A stretch of DNA of 64,000 nucleotides from positions 1,025,501 to 1,089,500 of the forward strand of contig NZ_CP142394.1 in NCBI RefSeq assembly GCF_035930445.1, read 5' to 3'. The notes under the pieces were generated by a model, which worked only from the letters and a program-made list of their open reading frames with translations, did not search any database and had not been told where the DNA came from. Source of the stretch: Sphingopyxis chilensis (lineage in GTDB: Bacteria; Pseudomonadota; Alphaproteobacteria; Sphingomonadales; Sphingomonadaceae). Of the stretch, positions 17,320 through 55,101 are shown piece by piece. Position 1 is the first letter of the stretch, and the number at the start of each line of letters is the position of its first letter. Made by a program: the position numbers and the translations under genes.

Positions 17320-17733
17320 TCAGCTCTCCACCCCCTTCGCTTTCCCCCACGCCCGCGCGGCGGTGTAGCCCAGATAGCCCGTGCCGAAGAGCGCGTAGAG
17401 CGGCTCCGGGATTCCGGCGAGATAGGCGTTCATGCCATCGGCGATGCCCTTCGCCATCTCGGGCCGCGCGGCGGCGATCAGCCCCATCGGGATCGCCCAG
17501 AGCAAGAGCGCGTACATGACATAGAGGAAGCTCGGCCGCGCGCGGCTGGTCCACGGGTCGGCGCTGTTCGCCTCGGCGACGATCGCGGTCATCCGGGTGC
17601 GGATCGCTTCCATTTCCTGGCTTCCTTCCATTTTCAGCAGTTCGAGCTTGGCGCGGTCGCGCGCCTCGGGGTCGGGGATGATCTTGTCGATCAGCTTGGC
17701 GATGGGGCCGATCAGGCCTTCGATGATGCTCAT
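17320..17733 (-). CDS. GTA-type holin (3-TM holin family)
   Basis: 137 residues. An amphipathic N-terminus (MSIIEGLIGPIAKLIDKIIPDPEARDRAKL) is followed by the DPWTSRARPSFLYVMYALLLW stretch typical of the GTA_holin_3TM family and two or three membrane helices. Holins permeabilise the inner membrane so that an endolysin reaches the cell wall. It is 64 bases downstream of a GH108 endolysin gene. In Rhodobacter capsulatus the RcGTA lysis genes also form an isolated endolysin-holin pair away from the capsid cluster. No head or tail genes are nearby. Confidence 0.82.
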   Translation of the reverse strand: MSIIEGLIGPIAKLIDKIIPDPEARDRAKLELLKMEGSQEMEAIRTRMTAIVAEANSADPWTSRARPSFLYVMYALLLWAIPMGLIAAARPEMAKGIADGMNAYLAGIPEPLYALFGTGYLGYTAARAWGKAKGVES

Positions 17734-17797: not shown

Positions 17798-18367
17798 TCA
17801 CCCCTCTCCGACGCGGTTTGCGAGCCAGCCGTAGAGAAAGGCCTCCTGGCTCGGGCGGCGTTCGGCGAGCGCGATGTAGCGTTCGCCCTGCAACGCCTCC
17901 ATCGCGCGGAGGAGGACGGTTTCACCGCTCTTGCCGCGCGCTTTCAGAAAGCCGTCGAGCGCCGACAGCGTGCGCGGGCCGATGTCGCGGTCGACCGCGA
18001 TGTCGGGATAGTCGCGCGCGGCGCGGTTGAGCGCGTTGAGCGCGCGTTGGAGAAAACCCGCCGCGGTGCCCGTGCCCATGTTGACGCCGGTGTCGAACAG
18101 TTCGGCGGCGATCTGCGGCGCGCGCAGCGCGACCCGGTCGAAACCGGGGCGCAGCCAATAGAGGCGGCGATAGATCGATGCCGCCTCGGCGCGCGGCAGG
18201 TCGCGCATGCTGCCCGCATAGCCTTCGGCCCGTGCGACGGCCTGGGTGATCCCCCAGCAAGTGGGGCCGCCGCGGTCGGCGGGGTGGTTTACATATCGGC
18301 CTTCGCGGTCGATGACGGCGTCGATCAACGCGTCGGCGTCGCTGGCGAGTGGGTCGGGTCGTGGCAT
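17798..18367 (-). CDS. GH108-family endolysin (muramidase) of GTA type
   Basis: 189 residues from the ATG at 18367, preceded by AAGGAG. The N-terminal GH108 domain has IDREGRYVNHPADRGGPTCW with the candidate catalytic Glu22 and then GIT; the GVNMGTGTAAGFLQRALN segment and the C-terminal peptidoglycan-binding part complete the fold. It cleaves peptidoglycan during lysis. No signal peptide is visible, so export would depend on the adjacent holin. Its upstream region carries the TTTCCTACAA element shared with the 54.1-kb terminase-like gene. Confidence 0.85.
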   Translation of the reverse strand: MPRPDPLASDADALIDAVIDREGRYVNHPADRGGPTCWGITQAVARAEGYAGSMRDLPRAEAASIYRRLYWLRPGFDRVALRAPQIAAELFDTGVNMGTGTAAGFLQRALNALNRAARDYPDIAVDRDIGPRTLSALDGFLKARGKSGETVLLRAMEALQGERYIALAERRPSQEAFLYGWLANRVGEG

Positions 18368-18402
18368 GATTCGCTCCTTATGGTTGGTTGAACGGTTAAA
18401 AC

Positions 18403-18430
18403 GAACCATATTGGAATATTGTAGGAAAGG
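18403..18430 (-). promoter_or_regulatory. Shared upstream element A (TTTCCTACAA-N7-ATATGGTTC)
   Basis: Read on the minus strand, TTTCCTACAA (18428-18419), seven bases, then ATATGGTTC. It lies about 52 bases upstream of the endolysin ATG. The same element, identical at 23 of 27 positions, is at 54167-54193 at the same distance from the terminase-like gene. It also falls in front of the divergent quinone oxidoreductase gene, so which gene it serves is inferred from the second copy. Confidence 0.6.
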
Positions 18431-26013: not shown

Positions 26014-26041
26014 AACCAAATCGGTTTCTTCTTTCCTACAA
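26014..26041. promoter_or_regulatory. Shared upstream element C (AACC-N5-GGTT plus TTTCCTACAA)
   Basis: Between the divergent XRE and DUF6456-like genes. AACC-AAATC-GGTT (26014-26026) is an inverted repeat. TTTCCTACAA (26032-26041) is identical to the core of elements A and B and points toward the DUF6456-like gene, 44 bases from its ATG. The ATATGGTTC half found at A and B is not placed the same way here. Confidence 0.5.
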
Positions 26042-26084: not shown

Positions 26085-26542
26085 ATGACCGCACGCCGCC
26101 TCGAAACGCGCATCCACCCCGACGACCGGATCGATCCCGGCAAGACGGGGCCGCAGGTGATGCGGCATGTGACGGTGAATGTCGGCGAAAGCCCGATCGG
26201 CTGGCTGGCGTCACGCGGGATGCTCACCCCCGCGCAACTGGGCGCGGGCGAGCGGTTGCGCGCCGATTACGAGCGCGCGGGCCTGTCGTCGCGCGTGACG
26301 ATGCGCTGGGACGCCGCGCCGCCCGGAAAGAGCCGGGGCGGTGCCCGCGCGACGCGCACCGGCGCTTTCACGCGGCGCTCGATGCGGTGGGGCCGGGGCT
26401 GGCCGATATTTGCTGGCGCGTGATTTGCGCGGGGGAGGGGATTGGCGGCGCAGAGAAAGGGCTGGGGTGGCCGGCGCGGTCGGGCAAGCTGGTGTTGGGG
26501 CTGGCGCTCGACCGGCTGGCGCGCTTTTACGGGACGGGGTGA
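26085..26542 (+). pseudogene. DUF6456-like protein, frameshifted
   Basis: A strong AAAGGAG precedes the ATG. The first frame reads VGESPIGWLASRGMLTPAQL and AGERLRADYERAGLSSRVTM, then degenerates after MRWDAAPPGKSRGG. The next frame takes over with RRFHAALDAVGPGLADICWR and ends GWPARSGKLVLGLALDRLAR-FYGTG at 26542. Together the halves give one DUF6456-like protein of about 150 residues, broken by a one-base loss near 26335-26365 (or a sequencing error in a G/C-rich run). DUF6456 is, to my knowledge, found in GafA-type GTA activators. It diverges from the XRE gene. Confidence 0.7.
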
Positions 26543-54166: not shown

Positions 54167-54195
54167 GAACCATATGGGTGAATTGTAGGAAAGAG
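54167..54195 (-). promoter_or_regulatory. Shared upstream element B (TTTCCTACAA-N7-ATATGGTTC)
   Basis: On the minus strand TTTCCTACAA (54192-54183), 7 bases, then ATATGGTTC. It is 53 bases upstream of the terminase-like ATG, the same spacing as element A from the endolysin gene. Confidence 0.6.
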
Positions 54196-54204
54196 GAAAT
54201 GTGG

Positions 54205-55101
54205 TTACCGCTGGGAAGCGGTGTCTTCGTTGTTCTCGTCACGACGTTTCAATTCCCGCTCGATCATTTTAACGATTTCATCGTGGTGATCTTTAGCGAG
54301 TTTTTCCACAAATGCGCCGCGTTCGTCGGGATGGAGAAGGTGATATTCTAGATTCTCCGGGCCAGTTAGGGGTAAGCTTACGATGACCTCGCCGATCTGC
54401 GGATGAGTCATTTTGACGTCAAAGAAATGCTCTTGGGCTTTATAAACGTGGCCTTCAGATTGCATGCCTTCAATGTCGATAGGTACGGCGCGGCCTAGTG
54501 AGTTATCAAACTTAAGAAACTGAATGTGCTGTTTGAAATTCAGCCCTCGCGCAGCTTCAAGGTTGAGCCTGCGTGACGCGTTGGCTCTTGGAATATAGAA
54601 ACTTCCAGGGGCGGGCAGTTCCGGGCGATCGGTATATTTAAGGATCCCAGCCGAATATAGGAATTTTCCCCAATAGTTTAGAGTCCGCGTAAGCGCCGCG
54701 TCTAAATTCCGGAGAGTGTTATCGGTGCAGCGAACATTTATGACGGTCTGGGCGTGGAAATAATCACCGTTCTCGTCGTCATATTGAACCAAAACCAGTC
54801 GTTCTAAAATGTCTTTGGCGTCTGAGACTAACACCGGCTCCTGCCTCGGGATTTTGTGCTTTCCAGCGTTTGTCACCCCGCGCAACAAAAGATATTCGGG
54901 GCATTTCTGTACAATGATTTTGTATGCTGGGCGCAAAGTTCCCGGGATATGTTCCCTAAAATGATAGAGTGCTATTGCGGACGATACTGCGCTGCGTAGG
55001 TGCTGATCTCGACCGGCGTGATCGATGTCGCGTTGAGCAACATACTCGTCATATGTCGCTACGACATTGTGAACGAATGTCGATCTCACATCATCAAACA
55101 A
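54205..55101 (-). CDS. Hypothetical protein, possibly HEPN-like
   Basis: 298 residues, soluble, helical N-terminus. HLRSAVSSAIALYHFREHIP, then CPEYLLLRGVTNAGKHKIPR, resembles the C-P...KH pattern of HEPN-like helical proteins, but this is uncertain. It is markedly lower in G+C than its neighbours, with many A/T-ending codons, which points to recent transfer. It lies next to repeat triad 1. Confidence 0.55.
   Translation of the reverse strand: MFDDVRSTFVHNVVATYDEYVAQRDIDHAGRDQHLRSAVSSAIALYHFREHIPGTLRPAYKIIVQKCPEYLLLRGVTNAGKHKIPRQEPVLVSDAKDILERLVLVQYDDENGDYFHAQTVINVRCTDNTLRNLDAALTRTLNYWGKFLYSAGILKYTDRPELPAPGSFYIPRANASRRLNLEAARGLNFKQHIQFLKFDNSLGRAVPIDIEGMQSEGHVYKAQEHFFDVKMTHPQIGEVIVSLPLTGPENLEYHLLHPDERGAFVEKLAKDHHDEIVKMIERELKRRDENNEDTASQR

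Follow-up and report, generated by a model that had tools for sequence, protein, structure and literature searches.

A two-part candidate regulatory element of a predicted gene transfer agent regulon in Sphingopyxis and other sphingomonads

A short composite element found in Sphingopyxis chilensis before a lysis pair, a small-terminase-like gene and a regulator gene is, with good confidence, a cis-regulatory site of a sphingomonad gene transfer agent (GTA) regulon, on which an XRE-type protein is predicted to act at a palindrome and a DUF6456 protein at a neighboring box. GTAs are tamed viruses that ship host DNA between cells and are common in Alphaproteobacteria. The stretch of 64,000 nucleotides analyzed here is referred to as the window and its genome as G000. 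A first-pass annotation of the window had suggested that one factor reads a GTA regulon whose genes are dispersed. The regulon was supported, with the amendment that GTA promoters mostly carry the palindrome only and that two regulators are probably involved. Rather than a single promoter box, the element probably comprises two adjacent predicted sites, each with its own regulator. Defined by its sequence, it ties lysis, regulator, packaging-like, and structural genes together throughout the genus and beyond, and offers a marker for further GTA-linked genes and for the proteins that run the GTA. Passages of two studies describe how activator binding sites of GTAs have so far been hard to define (PMC9632790, PMC11150451).

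Composite element and target genes in the window

Our scan of the window found TTTCCTACAA-N7-ATATGGTTC exactly at sites A and B (Table 1) and no other match within three mismatches, a threshold at which 0.01 matches are expected from shuffled sequences. The agreement of 23 out of 27 bases between A and B given in the first-pass annotation is true if one extra upstream base is included. Its distances of 52 (A) and 53 (B) bases to the start codons had to be corrected to 35 and 36, counted from the last motif base to the ATG; from the first T the distances are 61 and 62.

The 10-mer TTTCCTACAA by itself is weak evidence. It occurs three times in the window, for which 0.55 occurrences are expected if one mismatch is allowed and for which at least three matches were obtained in 1 out of 100 shuffles. 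The whole genome contains five copies compared to two of the reversed control. These are sites A, B, and C, one copy inside a coding frame (pirin-like by eye), and one at 2,986,221 just upstream of the GTA cluster. Site C had been described as the 10-mer alone, pointing toward a DUF6456-like gene. Box and orientation were confirmed, but the second half is not absent, since AACCAAATCGGTT stands upstream of the box and is the only occurrence of AACC-N5-GGTT in the window.

Table 1. Features of the proposed regulon in the window, and the insert at the GTA cluster of the same genome
Feature	Position	Strand	Remarks
Site A, TTTCCTACAATATTCCAATATGGTTC	18403..18428	-	composite of TTTCCTAC box and CCAATATGGTT part of palindrome; before lysis cassette
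Site B, TTTCCTACAATTCACCCATATGGTTC	54167..54192	-	composite element of small-terminase-like gene; also before B-family genes in relatives
Site C, first half, palindrome AACCAAATCGGTT	26014..26026		between XRE and DUF6456 genes; same kind as at GTA-cluster promoters
Site C, box TTTCCTACAA	26032..26041	+	points to DUF6456 gene
XRE-type HTH regulator, 186 aa	25436..25996	-	HTH_31, E 3.4e-10; divergent from DUF6456; candidate palindrome reader
DUF6456 (GafA/GafZ family) gene, disrupted	26085..26542	+	frames 26085-26423, then on to 26542; PF20057
GH108 endolysin (Glyco_hydro_108 and PG_binding_3)	17798..18367	-	first gene downstream of site A; Pfam E 7.7e-27 and 2.6e-19
GTA_holin_3TM holin	17320..17733	-	second gene of lysis pair; PF11351, E 7.9e-33; phrog_3427 holin
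Gene B, small-terminase-like HTH protein, truncated, 119 aa	53771..54130	-	phrog_4044, E 8.4e-5
Insert	L245 16051-19255 = G000:C1 about 2986050-2989254		between GTA promoter and cluster

The endolysin of site A gave the only GH108 match of the whole genome; the frame scanned with Pfam (17798-18370) is one codon longer before the ATG. Gene B had been annotated as terminase-small-like. The family assignment stood (phrog_4044), but the gene is not intact, as its product is 119 aa long compared to about 320 aa in relatives. Against the same family of terminase small subunits, a 319-aa relative of B scored E 2e-6 and another one E 3.1e-9. The B protein itself gave no Pfam match, and a structure search with the B model (pLDDT 71.6) returned no match under E 0.001. 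Adjoining gene B is an ORF of 298 aa (54205-55101, minus strand) with no Pfam match and a G+C content of 48.8% compared to 65.6% in the window. Relative G042 has another gene in its place, which looks ATP-binding by eye.

The gene behind site C likewise belongs to the family assigned to it in the first-pass annotation (PF20057, E 4.8e-13) but is not intact, carrying a 25-bp deletion near 26350 in comparison to genome G134 of the same species. The full-length DUF6456 protein of G134 matches with E 3.2e-42, and no other domain was found in it. The DUF6456 protein thus stands alone, with a length of about 160 aa. An N-terminal HTH is present in the XRE protein (HTH_31 and HTH_3 in Pfam), for which no Pfam S24 match was obtained up to E 10. 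Its single-sequence structure model is poor (pLDDT 49.8) with a strand-rich C-terminal half, and comparison to solved structures yielded weak HTH matches only.

Distribution in sphingomonads and at GTA promoters

When the pattern was loosened and one mismatch allowed, 54 out of 60 genomes of the genus gave a total of 113 hits, and the backwards-read pattern gave none. The element occurs about twice per genome, mostly before endolysin or HTH target genes. Nine places in 7 genomes, compared to one for the control, resulted from a search of 119 genomes of the family with the strict pattern (at most two mismatches). In G000 and in G042 these were the sites of the lysis and B genes, and in G113 that of a B-like gene; the others were sites between glycosyltransferase and GDSL-type or neighboring genes in G037, G060, and G069, and a site in G033 (L040) with no nameable target gene.

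Scanning a collection of 84,980 species genomes resulted in 98 stretches, of which 80 were among the matches listed, with 81 sites. The titles of 76 of these 80 stretches name Sphingomonadales or a genus of this order; the other titles are three of a less specific proteobacterium and one of a Winogradskyella MAG. Target genes were GH108 in 35 cases, the B family in 30, and a longer cousin of it (D) in 7, so that 72 of the 81 sites precede GH108 or small-terminase-like genes. The motif was not found at many unrelated promoters. The nine other sites comprise four at stretch ends (L079, L094, L120, L125), two at GDSL-like loci by eye (L060, L084), one before a GTA-type holin by eye (L111), one without a named target (L097), and the Winogradskyella site (L049), which is probably a chance match. 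Measured from the first T, the ATG follows at 60 or 61 bases in 25 out of 31 GH108 cases, and at 62 in 17 out of 22 B cases, that allowed a measurement. Orthologous lysis genes of relatives carry the motif as well, and in three other genera a variant site lies 61 bases before a GTA_holin_3TM gene.

Weaker sites were sought with a model in 25 genomes, scoring up to 150 candidates in each. Two of them in G000 (E 0.04 and 1.3) precede further small-terminase-like genes, and one of the two, at 238,312, is also found in G134, G126, G168, and G142. Matches to phrog_4044 were obtained for B and D, for two more target proteins, and for the small-terminase gene in the GTA cluster. The B family resembles these small terminases in sequence, but differs by its location outside the GTA cluster and by an additional long stretch at the C-terminus.

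In other sphingomonad genera the element follows a glycosyltransferase gene and precedes a small unknown or GDSL-type protein (L041, L042, L043; by eye also L060 and L084). The GDSL match in Pfam was over the cut-off in L043, under it in L041, and absent for the incomplete protein of L042, and the genes of these three loci gave no phrog hit. An exopolysaccharide regulon, considered from the sites between glycosyltransferase and GDSL-type genes in L041, L042, and L043, was set aside as the cases are few. Perhaps these loci represent a GTA spike or capsule-related operon, the spike role being a guess.

The regulator locus is highly conserved. A profile search found DUF6456 in 58 out of 60 genomes of the genus, and all 58 loci possess a divergent XRE gene, with 60% or more identity to that of the window, and AACC-N5-GGTT in the intergenic region. 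The box at site C reads TTTCCTAC in 48 loci, TTTCCTAA in 7, and neither in 3, i.e. TTTCCTA[C/A] in 55; the exceptions are TTTCCTGC in G128 and G131 and TGTCCTAC in G133. In two other genera, the GTA stretches contain an XRE homologue at the cluster, in one of them together with DUF6456. A variant palindrome, TGCC-N5-GGCA, lies between XRE and DUF6456 in G113 (L278). In G038 an XRE homologue (L282 2862-3422) and the GTA cluster itself are divergently arranged, with TGCC-N5-GGCA and not AACC-N5-GGTT between them.

A full GTA cluster is located 1.9 Mb away from the window in G000. The 19.9 kb read around its DUF2460 hit encode TerL, portal, HK97 capsid, tail tube, DUF2460, BR0599, NlpC/P60, and the Rcc01698 C-terminal domain (Pfam, ten L245 proteins), and a TerS-like gene adjoins TerL. 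By gene content, a head-tail cluster of the RcGTA type is present in this genome. GTA_TIM (PF13547) was found in none of 60 genomes, with a positive Caulobacter control. This model is a poor test in the genus, because PF23845, another TIM-barrel family, occupies the place beside DUF2460, which it adjoins in one protein of G000. DUF2460 itself occurs in 31 out of 41 genomes of the genus (G000 included) and in 30 out of 39 others searched. Loss of the GTA from the genus, which the GTA_TIM result alone could have indicated, was therefore rejected on the basis of DUF2460 and the cluster reading.

Promoters were sampled from stretches around 40 of the 61 DUF2460-positive genomes, of which 34 contain TerL. 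AACC-N5-GG[TC] was found 5 to 12 bases (after one free base) before TTGAC in 29 of these 34 clusters, and G126 is the 30th, with one base changed. The palindrome of G000, G134, and G174 lies 3.3-3.4 kb before the cluster, ahead of a transposase-bearing insert, and the promoter of G038 contains no AACC-N5-GGTT. A looser palindrome pattern gave 34 matches in the 40 stretches, 33 of them at clusters and one in G123, which has the same leader in a stretch without TerL. With its presence before 33 out of 34 clusters, the palindrome is thus common to GTA promoters and the window sites. Its centre lies about 14-15 bp before the TTGACA -35 element of the head-tail promoter, a position which would suit either an activator or a repressor. 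The exact box TTTCCTA[C/A][A/T] stands upstream of the cluster only in G000, G134, and G174, where it lies near the right end of the insert, and in G113 between XRE and DUF6456. TTTCCTACA near a transposon end precedes the cluster in three genomes including G000, and most GTA head-tail promoters carry the AACC-N5-GGTT half only. The spacer after TTGACA (TTGACATCGTCACGCT) is conserved across genera beyond plain sigma-70 expectation (e.g. L247 5078 onward) and may be a further binding site.

Candidate regulators of the two halves

The eighth base of the box is A (TTTCCTAA) in all 12 hits of five genomes and C in all 101 other hits. Two weaker sites of G119, before its lysis and B genes, also read TTTCCTAA (2 out of 2), and so does the box at site C in seven genomes, namely the five, G119, and G144. 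Our tree of XRE and DUF6456 from 52 genomes takes in five of the seven. The five included in the tree form one group nested in the genus, indicating one change; the group occurs in 94% of 200 bootstrap trees and its support (94/27) is weak on one measure. For a parallel difference at so many unlinked sites, the best explanation is that a single protein reading them all has changed. The pattern is as expected if one trans-acting factor reads all sites, and would be an example from nature of a regulator and its sites changing in concert.

No residue of the XRE protein is typical of the TTTCCTAA group, compared to two columns of DUF6456. The first, Gly to Cys in the presumed HTH region, was found in 6 out of 6 genomes of the group with data and in 1 out of 48 others; this one, G137, has the Cys yet its boxes read TTTCCTAC. 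The second, Pro to Ala, was found in 6 out of 7 genomes of the group (not in G119) and in 3 out of 48 others. Both columns can be explained by shared descent, and no regulator residue covaries perfectly with the box. Altered boxes at site C were found in 2 out of 5 loci with broken DUF6456 (G000, G173, G131, G128, G151; G145 was left out as its contig ends inside the gene), in contrast to 1 out of 52 with the full-length gene (Fisher p 0.018). The palindrome stays in these loci. DUF6456 is thereby weakly favored as the putative reader of the box. The XRE protein is favored as the predicted reader of the palindrome, because the latter adjoins the XRE gene close before its start codon.

TTTCCTAC could instead be read by a third, unlinked factor, either a GafY-like protein of the DnaA type or an alternative sigma factor, which we consider doubtful. 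The DnaA box, TTATCCACA, and TTTCCTACA are alike at 6 out of 9 positions, and the absence of a perfectly covarying regulator residue would also agree with such a factor. Moreover, passages of two reports describe GafY, the partner of GafZ in Caulobacter, as matching the DnaA-like N-terminal part of GafA (PMC11150451, PMC9638019). Against this stands that no GafY-like gene was seen in most genomes with the Bac_DnaA_C model, which may miss GafY: it gave a single hit in 49 out of 60 genomes, two in 10, and none in one. The single hit of G000 with this model, to which the same applies, lies at the chromosome start and is as strong as expected for DnaA. The over-representation of altered boxes next to broken DUF6456 genes, although based on few cases, likewise argues for DUF6456 rather than for an unlinked reader.

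It is rather improbable that the XRE protein alone reads both halves and that DUF6456 acts elsewhere, e.g. as an anti-terminator on elongation like GafZ of Caulobacter, which is reported in an elongation complex in passages of one study (PMC11150451). The XRE gene adjoins site C, and a palindrome suits a dimeric XRE repressor. However, the box differs at all sites of one group while the XRE protein shows no matching substitution, and the two halves are separable, because the palindrome of most GTA promoters comes without a box. That the element is just an ordinary promoter, or was copied by duplication, with no connection to GTAs, would be compatible with a 10-mer modestly above chance and would not be excluded by three window genes alone, but is very improbable in view of target genes from different families (endolysin and HTH), of about two elements per genome that mostly precede these targets, and of the palindrome marking GTA-cluster promoters.

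In the preferred reading, with the XRE protein on the palindrome and DUF6456 on the box, the element would consist of a palindromic operator, AACC-N5-GGTT (relaxed CC-N5-GG), and the directional box TTTCCTAC. Lysis cassettes and small-terminase-like genes are preceded by box then operator, the XRE/DUF6456 locus has operator then box, and the GTA head-tail promoter has the operator alone. The XRE protein would hold the regulon off at the palindrome, including its own gene and that of DUF6456. The DUF6456 protein, as a GafZ-like activator reading the box, would switch on its own gene together with the endolysin-holin pair and the small-terminase-like genes. It would thus link the making of particles with cell lysis. 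That the proteins bind, whether each acts positively or negatively, and how the two halves are shared out between them are what we infer from comparing genomes.

Ten of the 41 genus genomes searched possess no DUF2460. Seven of them (G125, G132, G138, G146, G147, G150, G158), among these the single-contig genomes G125 and G138, keep full-length DUF6456 and at least one site. Thus, the regulon can outlive this GTA marker, and it may persist after GTA loss or serve another use. More tentatively, and with low confidence, the dispersed small-terminase-like proteins might be made along with GTA and lysis pair, in which case the choice of packaged DNA may hinge on genes outside the cluster, and the DNA code of the activator might have been rewritten once, at all of its targets, in one clade. 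If this is true, activator and recognition residues could be identified from genomes alone.

Relation to known GTA circuits and lesions in this strain

The circuit most likely works like those of GafA and RogA-GafYZ, relatedness to GafA and GafZ being given by the DUF6456 domain and action on promoters being predicted. DUF6456 proteins are reported as GafA relatives in passages of two studies (PMC9638019, PMC9765227). In Rhodobacter capsulatus, the RcGTA system, GafA binds the GTA promoter, its own promoter, and lysis promoters according to part of one report (PMC6363796; see also PMC9638019), so that a DUF6456-family protein acts on three kinds of promoters there, and the same kinds share the element described here. 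In the corresponding passage of a later article, Tran and Le state that mapping of the GafA binding elements had not reached nucleotide resolution (PMC11150451). In contrast to RcGTA, the sphingomonad DUF6456 protein is a stand-alone protein beside a divergent XRE gene, the site is defined by sequence, and there are several small-terminase-like targets.

The Caulobacter system (CcGTA) also combines an HTH protein with a GafZ-family protein over a dispersed regulon. As described in passages of the 2022 study, RogA, a LexA-like HTH protein, represses gafYZ at inverted repeats GGAA-N4-TTCC, the induced genes include a homeodomain-related gene and no holin or endolysin homologue, and a GafYZ motif could not be predicted (PMC9632790). 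Part of a subsequent report describes the mapping of a GafY element in the GTA promoter of Caulobacter, with ACTATG changed (PMC11150451); by eye this element does not resemble the box found here. Compared to this system, AACC-N5-GGTT takes the place of the RogA sites, and GGAA-N4-TTCC was not seen by eye in the XRE/DUF6456 intergenic regions, where AACC-N5-GGTT is the conserved palindrome. The lysis pair carries a site here, in contrast to the induced genes listed for Caulobacter, and no DnaA-type partner was seen with the Bac_DnaA_C model, which may miss GafY. We did not file the XRE protein as RogA, because its presumed site differs and an S24-like domain was not demonstrated. Among the matches listed in our literature search on sphingomonads, there was no description of such a regulon or motif.

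In G000 the regulon shows three lesions, i.e. the 25-bp deletion in DUF6456, the truncated gene B, and the insert between GTA promoter and cluster. As a consequence, this strain may have a silent GTA. A stretch of G134 matches gene B in the C-terminal part only. The insert of G000 carries a transposase of the IS1595 type (PF12762, E 1e-33) and a BstA-like gene of phage defence (phrog_6287, E 1.9e-101), and is bordered by the inverted repeats TATGTAGTTTACAAAC and GTTTGCAAACTACATA, with CACAAGTGT(C) on both sides. Its right end, which was not found in the plasmids searched, carries TTTCCTACA and a 40-residue membrane-like ORF nearby. As judged by eye, G134 and G174 have inserts in this position too, with a similar transposase and different cargo.
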